A stretch of 64,000 bases of DNA from an uncultured Dyadobacter sp. (GTDB taxonomy: Bacteria; Bacteroidota; Bacteroidia; Cytophagales; Spirosomataceae): the NCBI RefSeq assembly GCF_946482605.1, contig NZ_CAMLSE010000030.1:31924-95923 (forward strand), written 5' to 3'. This document shows, piece by piece, positions 37,224-42,164 of the stretch; within the stretch, counting starts at the first letter, position 1; every line of letters starts with the position of its first letter. A model generated the notes under the pieces. It had not been told where the DNA came from and did not search any database. It was given only the letters and a program-made list of their open reading frames with translations. A program made the position numbers and the translations under genes.

Positions 37224-38609
37224 ATGCGACGCAGAGACTTTTTATCATCCACAATAGCCGGAGCAGCTGCATCTGCCGCGCCGTTAAAAGTATTTAGCCA
37301 AGGAGAAGAAATCAAAGAAGCAAAAGGTAGTCTAAATGAGCCTGCGCGAAATATTCCGTTGGCAGGAGATTATGATGTGATCGTTTGCGGAGCAGGCCCC
37401 GCTGGTGTTGCTGCGGCTATTGAAGCCGGACGTACTGGTGCCAAAACGCTTCTTCTTGAAGTTCACGGTTGTTTAGGGGGCGTCTGGACGTCAGGTTGCT
37501 TGACCTGGATCATCGACAATAAAAATAAAGGAGGGATAGTAGCGGAAATTAAGGAAAAGCTTCGCCATCGAAAGGGCAATGCTACAATCCCCACCGGGAA
37601 TTCGTTTTCTTTCGATGCTGAGCAGATGAAAATACTGTTGGAAGAGCTATGTATTGAAGCTGGTGTAACAATTCGCCTTTTTACCAGGGTAGTCTCAACG
37701 GCGCAGAGAAACGAAAGGATGACTCATGTTGTTACAGAATCTAAGTCTGGGCGCGAAGCCTGGGGAGGTAAGATCTTCATTGATTGCTCGGGGGATGGGG
37801 ACTTGGCTGCCCGTGCTGGCTGCAAGTTCGACTATGGCGACAGTGCCGGACAGGGACAGCCAATGAGTATGCTTTGCCTGATTTCCGGGGTCCATTATTC
37901 TGAAATAAGGGAATTTATTCGTGATGAAGAAGATAGCAAGGCTGGATCACGCTCTAAAAAACGTTTGGAAGACGCTATCATACGGGGAGGACATACCCCT
38001 TCTTACGCCCGTCCAAGCATCTTTCCTATCTATGAGGACCTGCACATGCTGATGGCAAATCATGAATATGGGTTTCTAGGAACCGACGCTGGCCAGGTAA
38101 CTGAGGCTACTCTGAAAGGACGGGCAGAAGTACACAAAATTGTTCACAGTTTGCAGTCATTAGGCGGCCCCTGGGGTAACCTGAAAATTATAGCTACCGG
38201 TGAACAGATTGGTGTTCGTGAAAGTCGGCGCATACACGGGCTGTATACGGTGTCCCGTCTGGACTTGGTCAAAGGCGCGCGGTTCGAAGATGCTGTGTGC
38301 CGCGTCACATTCGGCGTTGATGTGCATTCGGTGAAAAAGGAAGATGAGACCACCACAAACTACAACAGGGGTACCACCAGCAAACCTTACGATATTCCGG
38401 TTCGTGCCTTGATTGCCAGCGATGTGAAAGGGCTTATGATGGCTGGCCGTTGTATCAGTGGTGATTTCGTAGCTCATTCGAGTTACCGAGTTACAGGCAA
38501 CGCTGCTATGATGGGCCAGGCGGCTGGGCGGGTTGCTGCCATTGCAGCAAAAAACAATCAATTGCCGCAGGATGTCAAATGGACTGAAGTGGGGTGGTCT
38601 GTCGATTAA
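37224..38609 (+). CDS. FAD-dependent oxidoreductase with Tat signal
   Basis: A 461-residue flavoprotein. RRRDFLSSTIAGAAASAAP is a twin-arginine signal. YDVIVCGAGPAGVAAAIEAG is the dinucleotide-binding motif. LEVHGCLGGVWTSGCLTWI and the C-terminal SDVKGLMMAGRCISGDFVAH with VTGNAAMMGQAAGRVAAIAA are typical of the FAD_oxidored family found in Bacteroidota and Planctomycetota glycan loci. The reaction is not predictable. It is the last gene of the plus-strand locus. Its TAA stop is the first three bases of the 8-bp duplication made by the transposon that follows. Confidence 0.9.
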   Translation: MRRRDFLSSTIAGAAASAAPLKVFSQGEEIKEAKGSLNEPARNIPLAGDYDVIVCGAGPAGVAAAIEAGRTGAKTLLLEVHGCLGGVWTSGCLTWIIDNKNKGGIVAEIKEKLRHRKGNATIPTGNSFSFDAEQMKILLEELCIEAGVTIRLFTRVVSTAQRNERMTHVVTESKSGREAWGGKIFIDCSGDGDLAARAGCKFDYGDSAGQGQPMSMLCLISGVHYSEIREFIRDEEDSKAGSRSKKRLEDAIIRGGHTPSYARPSIFPIYEDLHMLMANHEYGFLGTDAGQVTEATLKGRAEVHKIVHSLQSLGGPWGNLKIIATGEQIGVRESRRIHGLYTVSRLDLVKGARFEDAVCRVTFGVDVHSVKKEDETTTNYNRGTTSKPYDIPVRALIASDVKGLMMAGRCISGDFVAHSSYRVTGNAAMMGQAAGRVAAIAAKNNQLPQDVKWTEVGWSVD

Positions 38610-38614
38610 TTTAA
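38607..38614. repeat. Target-site duplication, left (TAATTTAA)
   Basis: TAATTTAA directly precedes the left terminal inverted repeat and is repeated at 42157-42164 directly after the right one. Its first three bases are the stop codon of the FAD oxidoreductase gene. Eight bases is the duplication length known for the IS1595 family. Confidence 0.93.
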
Positions 38615-38639
38615 GGCAATGATATATCAATTTACACTA
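38615..38639 (+). repeat. Left terminal inverted repeat (25 bp)
   Basis: Begins GGCAATGATATATCAATT and continues TACACTA; it is the exact reverse complement of 42132-42156. The 14-mer AATTTACACTAAAC at its inner edge (38629-38642) recurs inside the element at 41538-41551. Confidence 0.95.
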
Positions 38640-38647
38640 AACTTCTA

Positions 38648-38681
38648 ATAAAAAAAGGCTAGTCACAATAGACTAGCCTTT
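38648..38681 (-). terminator. Intrinsic terminator for minus-strand cargo
   Basis: AAAGGCTAGTC (38654-38664) and GACTAGCCTTT (38671-38681) form a perfect 11-bp stem with loop ACAATA. On the minus strand the stem is followed by a run of T (A-run at 38648-38656 on plus). It ends transcription of the DUF2158-like gene just before the left end of the transposon. Confidence 0.8.
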
Positions 38682-38702
38682 GACTTTTAAGGTGTTATGC
38701 GA

Positions 38703-38894
38703 CTACCAAACTTCCCATTTTATTTTCATGGGAACCCATGGAGTCAATTCACTAATCAAAAATTCTTTCTGAATCTTCTCATTACCATTCAGCAACTCAC
38801 AAGTTACTCGGTCGCCATTCACCTTTCTCACTACCATCATCGGGCCACCTTTGGCCTCTCTCACTTTGTCTTGCACTTGCATCCCCTCGTCCAT
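38703..38894 (-). CDS. DUF2158/YodC-like small protein
   Basis: A 63-residue protein. VREAKGGPMMVVRKVNGDRV and the following CELLNGNEKIQKEFLISEL match the pattern of the DUF2158 (YodC) family: a hydrophobic beta-rich fold with GGPxMxV and a phenylalanine-containing FxxxxL end. The family function is unknown. It is the outermost cargo gene on the left, reading outward into an intrinsic terminator. Start ATG at 38894 is the only reasonable one. Confidence 0.7.
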   Translation of the reverse strand: MDEGMQVQDKVREAKGGPMMVVRKVNGDRVTCELLNGNEKIQKEFLISELTPWVPMKIKWEVW

Positions 38895-38988
38895 TTTTCG
38901 TGAATAATTTCAACGATACAACAATTACAGACGAAATCCAAACAAAAACTCAAATTTCTCCATATTTATAGGTAAACGAACACTAAAT

Positions 38989-39192
38989 ATGGATACGGAA
39001 GGTAAAATTTGCTGGTTTGAATGGATGGATGCAACGGATGCATTCGTCGTCATGCATGAGCAGTGGAGACTAATTGTTGACCAGCTACTGGCAATGAAAC
39101 TGGATGGCCGATTGTCAGAAGAGATGTTTTGTGAGATAACAAAATATGAAAGAAACTATCTTATTCTGAGATTTCCACAACTTCATCCTTAA
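38989..39192 (+). CDS. Small hypothetical cargo protein (67 aa)
   Basis: Reads MDTEGKICWFEWMDATDAFV and ends LILRFPQLHP. No family recognised. It is mostly helical in appearance, with many tryptophans and methionines and no membrane segment. The 3' end overlaps the convergent 109-residue gene by 32 bases. It diverges from the DUF2158-like gene, with about 95 AT-rich bases between them. Supported by its clean frame and start, but its size leaves doubt. Confidence 0.45.
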   Translation: MDTEGKICWFEWMDATDAFVVMHEQWRLIVDQLLAMKLDGRLSEEMFCEITKYERNYLILRFPQLHP

Positions 39193-39490
39193 CATCTTCA
39201 ATTAGCTCAATTACTGTACTTTTGACCAAGTTCTTAGTGGTTGGGTCAAGCTCTCCTAATGTAAAATTAGTGTGCTTATCCGCTGCTGCCTTAAATGTGC
39301 CTTCCACTAGAGGAAATTCAGCATTGATTATCCACGTTTCTTCCTCCAGTGAGATTGCAATAGGATTCTTTTCGTAATAGAACGTTGCTAAACGTGCTCT
39401 TCCGTCGGCCAGCAACTGATCTAGTTTTTCGGGGAATTTACCAAGTTCTTTAAGAGATTGGTCAGTCAAAACGAAATTTAGAACCGTCAT
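39161..39490 (-). CDS. Hypothetical 109-aa protein, coupled to XRE regulator
   Basis: Begins MTVLNFVLTDQSLKELGKFP and ends in an acidic tail (VIELIEDVKDEVVEISE). No family recognised. ATG at 39490 overlaps the stop of the upstream XRE gene in ATGA, so the two are translationally coupled. A DNA-binding XRE protein followed by a small coupled partner is the layout of many toxin-antitoxin or regulator-partner pairs, but nothing in this sequence shows toxin chemistry. The 3' end overlaps the convergent 67-residue gene. Confidence 0.65.
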   Translation of the reverse strand: MTVLNFVLTDQSLKELGKFPEKLDQLLADGRARLATFYYEKNPIAISLEEETWIINAEFPLVEGTFKAAADKHTNFTLGELDPTTKNLVKSTVIELIEDVKDEVVEISE

Positions 39491-39849
39491 TTGCTATTGT
39501 TGGTTTGTTCAATAATTTTCTTCAAAAACAAAATTTCCTCTTTCTGCTGCTGAATGATCTGCTCATATAGCTTCCGTTCCTGATCAGACGTGCCATTATT
39601 AACGACATACCCGTTCCCGGTTTGGTTGTGCATGACGTTGAAGATCATCTTCTCATTGAAGTTGATAATGTCTTCCACGCTGACTTTCAGCACTTCAGCA
39701 ATCTTCATTAGCTTAGGGTAGGATAGCTCTGATTCGTTCCTCTCGATCTTGCCGTATCCGGCCTGAGTCATTTCTAGCTTTTGAGCCATGTACTCCTGCG
39801 TATAGTTCTTAATCTCTCGAATCTTCTTGATTTTTTCTCCTATCTCCAC
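39487..39849 (-). CDS. XRE-family HTH regulator with C-terminal coiled coil
   Basis: About 120 residues. The N-terminal Cro/C1-type HTH is clear: EIGEKIKKIREIKNYTQEYM, then AQKLEMTQAGYGKIERNESE and KLMKIAEVLKVSVEDIINF. The C-terminus (ERKLYEQIIQQQKEEILFLK) is a probable coiled coil for dimerisation. I place the start at the GTG at 39849, giving the normal family N-terminus; a GTG at 39891 would add 14 residues. The stop overlaps the next gene. It probably represses its own operon and perhaps other cargo genes. Confidence 0.85.
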   Translation of the reverse strand: MEIGEKIKKIREIKNYTQEYMAQKLEMTQAGYGKIERNESELSYPKLMKIAEVLKVSVEDIINFNEKMIFNVMHNQTGNGYVVNNGTSDQERKLYEQIIQQQKEEILFLKKIIEQTNNSK

Positions 39850-39971
39850 ATTGAAAGAAATTTTTCCTGTAAGTTCTAAATAAATCCTCACAGTTCTAGT
39901 AGCTCACAGTTATTTCAAACCACCGTACATAGCTTTGAAGCCAGTTTAAACCCCTCGTTAAAGTGTTCTAA

Positions 39972-40445
39972 ATGGCTGGAAAAGAGAAGTATATAGTGTT
40001 GATTGTAATCGTTTTAGCCCTTTCAATTGGCTGGTTTTCGGAACATAAGGTTGGTAGTTTTGCCGCCGAACCTCGACAACGTGACACGCCCGACACGTTA
40101 TATGTGCTGTGGGAACCGGGAAAATCCCATATCTATAAATGGGACAAGCTTGGGGAGTATCTGTATAAAGAGCCGTGGAACCCCAAAGGGTTTGTTGTGT
40201 TCTATTCAATGTACGGCCATGATAGTCATGGATACAGCACATCCGAGGATACTTTTGAAGGGCATTACAAGGTATCGAAGAGGTTTCAAACGGAGGCAAA
40301 GAGTTTTGTCAGTGCAGACTTCTATCGCTGGAAAACTTGGACAAGCGAAGAACCGGGAACGTTTGGTACGTTCATAAAATGCGTTGAGAATCACAATTTT
40401 AATCAAAACAAGACGTGTGACTGTTCATTTCTTTTGCCCGACTAG
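39972..40445 (+). CDS. Hypothetical membrane-anchored cargo protein (157 aa)
   Basis: Starts MAGKEKYIVLIVIVLALSIG, a single N-terminal transmembrane or signal-anchor helix, followed by a soluble domain rich in aromatics (PDTLYVLWEPGKSHIYKWDK, KGFVVFYSMYGHDSHGYSTS) with two cysteines near the end (KTCDC). No family recognised. It diverges from the XRE gene. Its TAG stop shares the CTAG tetramer with the stop of the convergent 49-residue gene, so the two genes meet with a 4-base overlap. Confidence 0.6.
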   Translation: MAGKEKYIVLIVIVLALSIGWFSEHKVGSFAAEPRQRDTPDTLYVLWEPGKSHIYKWDKLGEYLYKEPWNPKGFVVFYSMYGHDSHGYSTSEDTFEGHYKVSKRFQTEAKSFVSADFYRWKTWTSEEPGTFGTFIKCVENHNFNQNKTCDCSFLLPD

Positions 40446-40591
40446 TCTCCTTTCTTAGGTGGCTTGACCTTCATCAGGGCAAACAGATGATTATCAAAGT
40501 CTGACTTTGATAATTCGCTATGCTCCGCTAGATCAGCTTTGCTTACTTTACGCTTTTTCGTCAACAACTTAAATTTATCAAGAGATTTCAT
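40442..40591 (-). CDS. Small basic protein coupled to transposase (49 aa)
   Basis: Its ATG at 40591 overlaps the transposase stop in ATGA, so it should be translated from the same message. It starts MKSLDKFKLLTKKRKVSKAD and ends KVKPPKKGD, with many lysines at both ends and a short acidic centre. No family recognised. A transposition accessory or regulatory protein is inferred only from coupling and charge. Confidence 0.65.
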   Translation of the reverse strand: MKSLDKFKLLTKKRKVSKADLAEHSELSKSDFDNHLFALMKVKPPKKGD

Positions 40592-41502
40592 GATATCAGT
40601 TTCTTATAGGTCAAACGACCCGTCATATTCTCCAAAGCTACATTAAAACGCTGTGAAGTGGTGTAGTTCCTAGTATTAAATCTGTAAGAGAATTCGTCCA
40701 CGTAGGATTGAAGATGCTCTACGCTTACCCAATGGTAGATACCTTCAAGACCTCGTTTCAGGTGACTCCAGAAGTTCTCGACTCCGTTCGTATGAGCCAT
40801 ACCATTGACAAACTGTTTGGCTCCGTGGTTGACCCTTTCATGATTGAATTTCTGGTTCAGCTTATTATAAGCCTGCCATTCATCAGTCATGACGGTAGTG
40901 TTACACTTGATACTGGATTCAATGATAGGCTCGATTGTAGCCTGTTTCGTATCGGATACAACCTTAGCTATCAAAACACCACCTCTCTGACGCATACCTA
41001 GAACCGGCTTTTTGGTTTTAGTACTTCGGCCTTGAGTACCTTGTGTCTTTTTCGATTCGTGTTTGTTCTTTTCCTCTCCACCGATGTAGGTTTCATCGAT
41101 CTCAACCGTATTCTCCAGAGCTTGCTTGAACGCTGGATGATCGAAAGCATATCTCAATCGATGCAGCAGGAACCATGCGGTCTTCTGAGTAACGTCAATA
41201 TCCTTTGCAAGTTGATGCGACGAAATGCCCTTCTTATGGGAAGAAAAGATGTATAATGCCATAAACCACTTAATCAGTGGTATTTTGGTGTCCTCGAAAA
41301 TAGTACCTACTTTGACGTTGAAGTATTTCCCGGTATTCTTGCATTTGTAGCGGTTGCCCGAACACTTGTACACCTTGGAAGTCTCGTCAAACGGAGAAAC
41401 GACAGTTCCGTCCCACCGGAGTTTTTCCAAGTGTTCGATGCAATCCTGTTCAGTAGGAAATGCTTTGACTAAATCAAGTATACTTTTGAAATCACCTATC
41501 AT
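40588..41502 (-). CDS. IS1595-family (ISXO2-like) transposase
   Basis: A 304-residue transposase. The N-terminal zinc-ribbon-like part has YKCSGNRYKCKNTGKYFNVK. A small HTH segment follows (KGISSHQLAKDIDVTQKTAW). The DDE domain has the first Asp in VEIDETYIGGEEKNKHES, the second in TVMTDEWQAYNKL, and the third acidic residue in NGVENFWSHLKRGLEGIYHW. The C-terminus YVDEFSYRFNTRN is the family ending. All key residues are present and the frame is intact, so the enzyme is probably active. Flanked by perfect terminal repeats. Confidence 0.95.
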   Translation of the reverse strand: MIGDFKSILDLVKAFPTEQDCIEHLEKLRWDGTVVSPFDETSKVYKCSGNRYKCKNTGKYFNVKVGTIFEDTKIPLIKWFMALYIFSSHKKGISSHQLAKDIDVTQKTAWFLLHRLRYAFDHPAFKQALENTVEIDETYIGGEEKNKHESKKTQGTQGRSTKTKKPVLGMRQRGGVLIAKVVSDTKQATIEPIIESSIKCNTTVMTDEWQAYNKLNQKFNHERVNHGAKQFVNGMAHTNGVENFWSHLKRGLEGIYHWVSVEHLQSYVDEFSYRFNTRNYTTSQRFNVALENMTGRLTYKKLIS

Positions 41503-41537
41503 AATATCAGAGAGTTACAGATATAAAGATAAGAAGA

Positions 41538-41581
41538 AATTTACACTAAACATAGAAGTTCGAGAAGTATTTTACACTAAA
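41538..41581 (+). repeat. Internal copies of the terminal-repeat motif
   Basis: AATTTACACTAAAC (41538-41551) is identical to the inner edge of the left terminal repeat (38629-38642). TTTACACTAAA recurs at 41571-41581. Both lie between the divergent start codons of the transposase and the HEPN-like gene. They could be transposase binding sites for autoregulation. Confidence 0.6.
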
Positions 41582-41599
41582 ATCAACAAACAAAGGAAC

Positions 41600-42139
41600 A
41601 TGGACACAGAAACCAGATTGGCCGAGCTAAACGCTAAACCTCAACTTACAGATGATGAAATGAAGGAAGTAATACGTCTGAGTCCGCCTAATACAATCAA
41701 ATCGTTACCTAATCTATTGACCCTCGGTGTTAAAGATGTAAATGCATTCGGCGACAATACCGCCGAAGCTAAGAAAATAGCCAAAGACGCATTTGAAAAG
41801 GGCTTTTACATTGAAACAATCTCACTTAGGCTTCAATCGATAGAAATCTGTCTTCGAATGTATGTCGTCGGCAAAAGTAAAAAAGGTAAAATAATTGATT
41901 CTGATAGCGATAAAAGGACATTTGGAAACTATGTCAACGATTGCGAGCAAATGGGCTTTGATAAGTCGTTGGTTCAGGAATTAAAGGATTTCAACAAAAA
42001 CAGGGTCAATGCCATACATAAATTCCTTCTTGGTGAGATCAAATATGCTGACCTGAAGGATGTTTGTATTGCGACGGATGGGCTTGGGAATAGAGTGTTA
42101 ACATATGTAGCTCAGGAGATTGGCACCCCTGTAGTGTAA
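41600..42139 (+). CDS. HEPN-like cargo protein (179 aa)
   Basis: Begins MDTETRLAELNAKPQLTDDE after a good AAAGGA ribosome site. The core is helical: EKGFYIETISLRLQSIEICL then FDKSLVQELKDFNKNRVNAI followed by HKFLLGEIKY. The segment RVNAIH is an R-x4-H motif placed after a long helix, as in HEPN-fold proteins, many of which are RNases in toxin-antitoxin and defence modules. I infer a HEPN-like fold; catalytic activity is unproven. The last codon and stop (GTG TAA) lie inside the right terminal repeat. The frame is open back to 41354, but that would run through the transposase. Confidence 0.65.
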   Translation: MDTETRLAELNAKPQLTDDEMKEVIRLSPPNTIKSLPNLLTLGVKDVNAFGDNTAEAKKIAKDAFEKGFYIETISLRLQSIEICLRMYVVGKSKKGKIIDSDSDKRTFGNYVNDCEQMGFDKSLVQELKDFNKNRVNAIHKFLLGEIKYADLKDVCIATDGLGNRVLTYVAQEIGTPVV

Positions 42140-42156
42140 ATTGATATATCATTGCC
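42132..42156 (-). repeat. Right terminal inverted repeat (25 bp)
   Basis: Exact reverse complement of 38615-38639. Contains the stop codon of the HEPN-like gene at 42137-42139. Confidence 0.95.
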
Positions 42157-42164
42157 TAATTTAA
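42157..42164. repeat. Target-site duplication, right (TAATTTAA)
   Basis: Identical to 38607-38614; marks the outer border of the transposon. Confidence 0.93.

Follow-up and report, generated by a model that had tools for sequence, protein, structure and literature searches.

A conserved tail gene coupled to the transposase of an IS1595-type transposon in Dyadobacter

Several mobile elements encode a helper protein beside their transposase, among them IstB of IS21, TnsC/TnsD of Tn7 and MuB of Mu. Elements of the insertion sequence (IS) family IS1595 that carry passenger genes were reportedly treated as transporter IS by Siguier in 2009. The DNA analysed here, called the window, is a stretch of 64,000 nt from an uncultured Dyadobacter sp. 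It contains a complete IS1595-type transposon of 3,542 bp (positions 38615-42156). Directly behind its transposase gene (tnp) lies a second gene, which encodes the 49 amino acid (aa) protein p49. According to PMC8101967, members of the IS1595 family usually have one transposase gene; IS copies that carry passengers are described in PMC3129680. On balance, we favour a transposon core composed of two coupled genes, an IS1595-type transposase and a partner whose C-terminal tail serves the transposase. This reading of the partner is based on four observations: its gene overlaps tnp, its tail is conserved at the protein level and hardly ever found other than behind this transposase, and tail and transposase diverge together even where the modules are exchanged. 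Because relatives keep the tail of the partner and swap its surroundings, the two genes have the look of an undescribed transposition unit of two parts with exchangeable cargo.

The transposon and its coupled gene

The ends of the element and the features of its core are as follows:
38607-38614, no strand: left target duplication TAATTTAA, same letters as 42157-42164
38615-38639, plus strand: left terminal inverted repeat GGCAATGATATATCAATTTACACTA, 25 bp, perfect inverted match to 42132-42156
40442-40591, minus strand: p49, coupled partner gene of 49 aa, overlapping the tnp stop by 4 nt; tail profile score 16.2 bits, held out
40445-40504, minus strand: codons of the tail SDFDNHLFALMKVKPPKKGD, the C-terminal end of p49
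40588-41502, minus strand: intact IS1595-type DDE transposase, 304 aa; Pfam and NCBIfam matches
41540-41579, plus strand: two TTTACACTA copies upstream of tnp (41540, 41571); the motif is the inner part of the ends
42132-42156, minus strand: right terminal inverted repeat GGCAATGATATATCAATTTACACTA, 25 bp, overlapping the stop of the HEPN gene
42157-42164, no strand: right target duplication TAATTTAA

The repeat GGCAATGATATATCAATTTACACTA is identical in 25 of 25 bp at both ends. These are its sole two matches in the window at up to 3 mismatches, and two matches were reached in none of 100 shuffles. Upstream, a 461 aa oxidoreductase gene is intact, and its stop codon falls inside the left TAATTTAA copy. 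The G+C content is 0.402 in the element vs 0.479 in 10 kb on either side. In an empty-site comparison, the short loci with orthologues of the oxidoreductase (64-67% identity) did not yield the downstream gene. Therefore, the insertion rests on the ends and the duplication. The whole 64 kb contain four TTTACACTA sites, all within the element: one per end and two before tnp. A near-identical pair of this type also precedes tnp in the related element L007 (see below), and TTTACACTA is a putative binding site of the transposase or of the XRE regulator. An Rfam scan of the window yielded nothing at the gathering threshold.

The transposase matches DDE_Tnp_IS1595 (PF12762, 1.7e-48) and the NCBIfam model IS1595 (NF033547, 3.6e-67), both above their cut-offs. 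An N-terminal zinc ribbon (PF12760) is matched only below the cut-off (E 0.00079, 19.8 vs 25.4 bits). The element has eight frames, the transposase and seven others. This does not exclude membership in IS1595, since a single gene is only the usual case and passenger-bearing members are known. Three 4 nt overlaps were found: between the XRE gene and a 109 aa frame (39487-39490), between tnp and p49 (40588-40591) and, convergently, between the p157 gene and p49 (40442-40445). The original prediction, drawn from the letters and open reading frames alone, was of a complete IS1595-family transposon with passenger genes, and the ends, the 8 bp duplication and the IS1595 model matches bear this out. 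Its 25 bp perfect repeats, duplication, intact transposase and 4-base overlaps were all confirmed. It gave two gene counts, six cargo genes in its title and seven small genes in its text; seven frames besides the transposase are present.

Relatives of the transposase are abundant: 7,999 of 8,000 scored candidates reached E≤0.001, the nearest named ones including Dyadobacter proteins. For the comparison, species genomes were scanned with an alignment of 34 transposases and the best 80 of 571 confirmed loci used. Together with plasmid, viral and genus loci, and with the window included, this gave 94 transposase loci. A script searched for terminal repeats that have an ATATA-like core, match at 16 or more of 22 positions and stand between 8 bp duplications. 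It recognized complete elements at 57 of the 94 loci, some of which are cut by contig ends. These elements are 1,913-6,859 bp long (median 3,081), and the duplications are exact in 56 of them. All 57 carry at least one additional frame of at least 45 aa. In seven (L020, L021, L027, L030, L033, L056, L063), the gene directly behind tnp is the only one. One locus (L065) has a transposase full of stops.

In most complete elements, a same-strand gene begins at or near the tnp stop. Where this gene bears the tail, it overlaps the tnp stop in 35 of 40 elements, by exactly 8 nt in 22. The N-terminal modules of the coupled genes are unrelated among relatives: RhuM, P63C, KilA-N or almost nothing. Pfam assigned RhuM to 11, P63C to 9 and KilA-N to 5 of the 51 genes behind tnp (window excluded), a set that also includes ordinary next genes such as methylases. 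Common to the coupled proteins is a C-terminal tail with the motif S-D-F-[DN]-x-x-L-x-x-[AGL]-L-x-[YV]-[NP]-P, in which F is present in 36, the first L in 37, the second L in 32 and P in 35 of 40 cases. A second transposase group of the genus Dyadobacter (43-44%, L096-L101) has small frames behind tnp whose products end in GTFEDMIxAxxKPKxK, which may be a diverged tail; those of L097-L101 share the reading frame of tnp. In five Streptococcus elements (L039, L042, L043, L046, L049), three co-directional genes of ~145-152, 95 and 182-185 aa follow tnp, and the first has the tail.

The closest relatives were found in Dyadobacter luticola (L007; transposase 89%, same repeats) and in a same-genus genome (L094; transposase 82% with one internal TAG). 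In L007, a 49 aa frame overlaps the tnp stop by 4 nt; in L094, a 41 aa frame has the same tail. Counterparts of p49 with 41-49 aa occupy the same place in three related elements. The XRE regulator of L007 is 86% identical to that of the window, and in L094 it is split over two frames (80% and 92%) with other genes beside. L007 differs at both ends: a 128 aa protein takes the place of the HEPN protein, and the far side of XRE has different small frames and a DUF4145 protein. L094 has a different protein at the place of p157. Since transposase, tail peptide and XRE recur in both, they are, as judged from these alignments, the backbone common to the three elements. L094/L133 is a decayed sister element in which only the right end is recognizable.

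Conservation and co-divergence of the tail

A profile was built from 36 tails, none from a Dyadobacter element, and run with a cut-off of 12.5 bits on frames starting near the tnp stop. A frame of at least 35 aa is present there at 89 of the 94 loci, and 51 loci pass. Fifteen of the passing loci were held out; they score 14.3-30.4 bits (window 16.2, L007 16.0, L094 14.4). Shuffled controls stay far below: 751 of 1,040 shuffled coupled proteins received a score, the best being 5.5 bits. Among 4,411 flank frames, one passes and the runner-up has 5.4 bits. The passing frame, of 131 aa, is a remnant next to the L048 element; a transposase was not found within 1.5 kb upstream of it. Other cargo frames were scored in 106 of 157 cases and two pass (L018, L074). 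At both loci, tnp is followed first by an HTH/M78-type gene, and it is the second gene of the row that bears the tail. When a class was left out of training, its members still exceeded 12.5 bits in 5/5 cases for KilA-N, 8/11 for RhuM (another reached 12.4), 8/10 for P63C, 4/5 for small and 7/9 for other partners.

The tail codons differ mainly at synonymous sites. In nine hand-picked pairs, the proportion of synonymous differences (pS) is 0.72 (58.7 of 82.0 sites) and that of nonsynonymous differences (pN) 0.18 (57.3 of 323.0); for all 15 pairs tried, some of which share members, the values are 0.76 and 0.15. By this measure, the tail is constrained as a protein, and a role as DNA signal is disfavoured. 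An ordinary IS1595-type element with random passengers, in which p49 would be a chance or decaying frame, is very improbable. Passenger-bearing IS copies are described (PMC3129680), and neither Pfam, NCBIfam, PADLOC nor PHROGs places p49 convincingly in a family, but the held-out score of 16.2 bits against 5.5 bits for the best shuffle, the protein-level constraint and the counterparts of similar size at the same place argue against it. The original prediction counted the 49 aa frame among the cargo; p49 is probably a transposase-linked component.

Is the tail simply the native C-terminus of the modules? It was compared with 73 relatives of the modules (30 RhuM, 30 KilA-N, 13 P63C) judged to be without a transposase within the 2.4-4.1 kb examined. 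The RhuM and KilA-N loci were taken, from more places found, in Bacteroidota genomes; the P63C set comprises one locus in 247 genomes and 12 records chosen from 16 plasmid and 45 phage records. None of the 73 reaches 12.5 bits, nine of them being frames below 215 aa that perhaps do not show the true C-terminus. The maxima are -0.2 bits for P63C and KilA-N and 10.1 bits for RhuM. Furthermore, in 8 of 11 coupled RhuM proteins, an SDFDK-type motif is followed by a linker and only after this by the extra tail. The native C-terminus was rejected as a source of the tail, since the tail is absent from transposase-free P63C and KilA-N proteins and these eight RhuM proteins carry native motif, linker and tail. 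In two phage records, the P63C gene adjoins a repressor gene.

The tail follows the transposase and not the module. Across 37 non-redundant elements, tail similarity correlates with transposase identity (r 0.64, 0/5,000 permutations). The correlation persists in the 531 pairs with different modules (r 0.62, 0/5,000 within-class permutations), in Bacteroidota alone (r 0.73) and in the clade nearest the window (r 0.48, 3/2,000). Sameness of module does not correlate with tail similarity (r 0.02, 26 rows; 1,451/5,000). Within classes, the correlation of the transposase with module and tail, respectively, is 0.49 and 0.62 for RhuM, 0.03 and 0.79 for P63C, and -0.36 and 0.83 for KilA-N. An example is provided by L021 (KilA-N) and L033 (P63C): their transposases are 88% identical and their tails match at 10 of 15 residues. 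Changes of module were counted on a quick tree of 40 transposase rows and compared with shuffled means. RhuM needs 11 changes for 11 rows (mean 9.8) and P63C 9 for 10 (9.1); these two are scattered on the tree because their changes are no fewer than the shuffled means. KilA-N and small partners need 4 each (4.8 each). Since the exchanged module sits between tnp and the tail, the tail persists on its far side.

Several observations weigh against a tail that serves the transposase. At 43 of the 94 loci the profile score stays below 12.5 bits; some of these have look-alike small frames (L096-L101, L081, L083) and the rest nothing recognizable. The motif had been spotted by eye before the profile was built, which the held-out loci and the flank control partly answer. 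Class 'other' clusters on the tree (4 changes vs a shuffled mean of 8.4); taken together, the classes show slight clustering (20 vs 23.6; 9 of 200 shuffles gave a count this low). Within RhuM elements, the module also tracks the transposase, as given above. Co-divergence can stem from shared inheritance; the position of the exchanged module between tnp and tail argues against mere linkage. A fusion model, in which the L037 transposase is read through into its in-frame 44 aa partner, contains a tail helix (332-340; block pLDDT, the predicted local distance difference test, ~59, and <50 around), and no confident docking of the tail on the transposase monomer is predicted. This does not disprove docking because transposases act as multimers on DNA. 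Finally, 16 of the 30 transposase-free RhuM proteins (L102-L111, L114, L115, L118-L120, L122; e.g. L104-L106) have an SDFDK-type end resembling the tail. The tail is therefore perhaps one use of a wider motif, and these ends and the transposon tail possibly share an origin or a target.

The last two points would also suit a tail that is conserved with the element without acting on the transposase, namely by marking a carried selfish regulator for control by a host factor (chaperone, protease or replication protein). We regard this as rather unlikely, since the tail tracks the transposase across different modules and within Bacteroidota, which a general signal need not do.

In the favoured two-gene core, the tail would form an amphipathic helix and bind either the transposase or the complex that this makes on the ends, and the partner would regulate, assist or steer transposition. 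The partner in the window is little more than the tail, whereas in relatives the tail is fused to exchanged modules (KilA-N, P63C, RhuM) that are found in phages, plasmids and transposase-free genomes. The remaining genes would be exchangeable cargo. More tentatively, and on present evidence as a minority view, these could be two-component transposons whose partner docks via a constant C-terminal helix, with the exchangeable N-terminal part as a plug-in that sets where or when the element transposes, e.g. into phage or plasmid DNA that takes the cargo to new hosts.

Cargo genes and their exchange

The other frames of the window element are:
38703-38894, minus strand: 63 aa frame, cargo; PHROG 3261 match
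38989-39192, plus strand: 67 aa open frame only, doubtful gene
39161-39490, minus strand: p109, 109 aa orphan, 4 nt overlap with the XRE gene
39487-39849, minus strand: XRE/HTH_3 regulator, 120 aa from GTG 39849, backbone gene; HTH_3 match
39972-40445, plus strand: p157, 157 aa, N-terminal hydrophobic segment seen by eye
41600-42139, plus strand: HEPN-fold protein, 179 aa, cargo; fold model and R-x4-H

The 63 aa frame had been taken for a DUF2158-like protein, for which Pfam gives no support at E≤1; its only match is PHROG 3261 of unknown function (1.3e-4). For the 67 aa frame, no family match was found in Pfam, NCBIfam, PADLOC or PHROGs. The XRE protein matches HTH_3 (2.2e-13, on the longer frame), and alignment with L007 makes GTG 39849 its most likely start. 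It is probably the element's own regulator. PADLOC, run on the eight proteins of the window, matches only XRE, with HTH-bearing models of several systems. p109 has no homologue at E≤0.001 except itself (9 candidates scored) and resembles the RelB-like antitoxin PF25734 weakly, below the cut-off (E 0.0067). It was not detected at E 0.001 in the two relatives L007 and L094, in both of which XRE recurs beside other downstream frames. A type II toxin-antitoxin pair of XRE and p109 is not supported at the sequence level because p109 is an orphan while XRE is kept with other downstream frames; the regulator itself and the 4 nt overlap stand. p157 shares 26% over 95 aa with a 140 aa opposite-strand protein at the same place in L007 (single-comparison E 1e-6).

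The protein proposed as HEPN-like has a model with a HEPN-type helical fold and an R-x4-H motif whose R135 and H140 are invariant in 16 rows. It is probably an RNase-type defence effector, as predicted from this fold and motif. R is followed by V or I in all 16 rows, whereas a polar residue is typical at this position, not universal (PMC3710099); the same source counts DUF4145 as a HEPN family. Metagenomes contain 15 homologues. Searches of plasmids and phages, and of 222 and 395 genomes (the genome searches without positive control), gave no homologue, nor was one found in L007 or L094. Viral contigs yielded one locus: in L006 (3820-5537, a virus-class contig), a homologue follows a 350 aa protein without Pfam or PHROG match, with phage-like genes near (a terminase by eye). 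The two possibly form a two-gene accessory locus.

Cargo was compared across relatives with 100 of 106 other cargo frames of at least 75 aa, window excluded. Among the matches listed (25 of 36 Pfam families), N6_Mtase occurs 6 times, Methylase_S and Eco57I 3 times each, SocA/Panacea, DUF4145 and DUF6036 twice each, and Eco47II, C5-methylase and KAP NTPase once each; lipocalin-like (2), a Mutator transposase and RadC are present as well. The methylase counts are inflated by the related Streptococcus elements. At 1e-10, PADLOC matched 110 families in the cargo, the commonest in 6 proteins, vs 19 families with one protein each in 100 length-matched flank frames, whose Pfam matches are mainly housekeeping or metabolic (25 of 120 families listed). 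Cargo is exchanged between elements and, by family counts, tends to be richer in restriction-modification genes than the flanks.

Could the element be mainly a defence or maintenance module (HEPN; XRE and its partner as toxin-antitoxin) with p49 as passenger, as the original prediction had it? The HEPN fold with R-x4-H and the restriction-modification trend over relatives fit this, and to that extent the defence part of the claim is supported. Nevertheless, we consider it improbable as a whole, in view of the tail profile, its controls and the co-divergence, the orphan p109 beside an XRE kept with other frames, the failure to find HEPN in L007 or L094, and the lack of an MNT gene in the element. 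The original prediction also raised recurrence of the same gene set, and held that unrelated cargo in homologous elements would speak against it. Transposase, tail peptide and XRE do recur, as does, in the corresponding position, an anchored protein or lipoprotein encoded on the minus strand. The full set was seen in no element found, and its recurrence could not be shown because the searches of plasmids, phages, genomes and viral contigs gave a HEPN match only at L006. Unrelated cargo is in part what was found, since the remaining cargo differs.

A single viral contig, IMGVR_UViG_3300037156_000148, is matched by 24 bases of the end of the window's element. It contains a 2,601 bp element (L185:4336-6936) with the same type of ends, an exact duplication ATAATTTA, no transposase and a 760 aa methylase-specificity fusion as cargo. 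On the same contig (L195, 9500-17300), a KilA-N-like protein whose tail scores 21.1 bits stands behind a 61-62% transposase. The ends around this pair have flanks that differ and so form no duplication. A 103 aa remnant there also has the tail (14.7 bits).

Comparison with known systems

A conserved second gene in a large catalogued IS family would change annotation, in which the product of the coupled gene is at present a hypothetical protein or one of the KilA-N, RhuM or P63C type. It would also open to experiment the question of how simple DDE transposons come by modular control or targeting. Moreover, the elements resemble compact carriers of restriction-modification and HEPN-type genes; one copy, in a virus-class contig, has no transposase of its own.

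With the IS1595 family, the element shares the DDE_Tnp_IS1595 domain, the 8 bp target duplication TAATTTAA and terminal inverted repeats matching at 25 of 25 bp. It differs by the coupled second gene with the conserved tail after tnp and by seven frames beyond the transposase. Like the transporter IS and IS1595 passenger elements, it has passenger genes inside the ends, whereas their descriptions, in the portions searched, mention no coupled tail gene. IS1595 elements and passenger-bearing IS copies are thus already known. The coupled tail gene appears to be new as far as the open-licence literature shows: no account of it was found in the set searched, in which the founding IS1595 paper is not included. 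The HEPN RNase superfamily (HepT toxins, Abi proteins) is resembled in fold model and invariant R-x4-H motif; unlike its members, the window protein has no Pfam HEPN match, no MNT partner in the element and V/I after R. KilA-N, P63C and RhuM proteins provide the N-terminal modules of many coupled genes, but their transposase-free relatives lack the transposon tail and p49 lacks such a module. In contrast to IstB, TnsC/TnsD and MuB, no ATPase was found in p49 and its helper role is putative. The likeness to IS21, Tn7 and Mu would be one of working only: in each case, a second protein stands by the transposase and could control target or activity.

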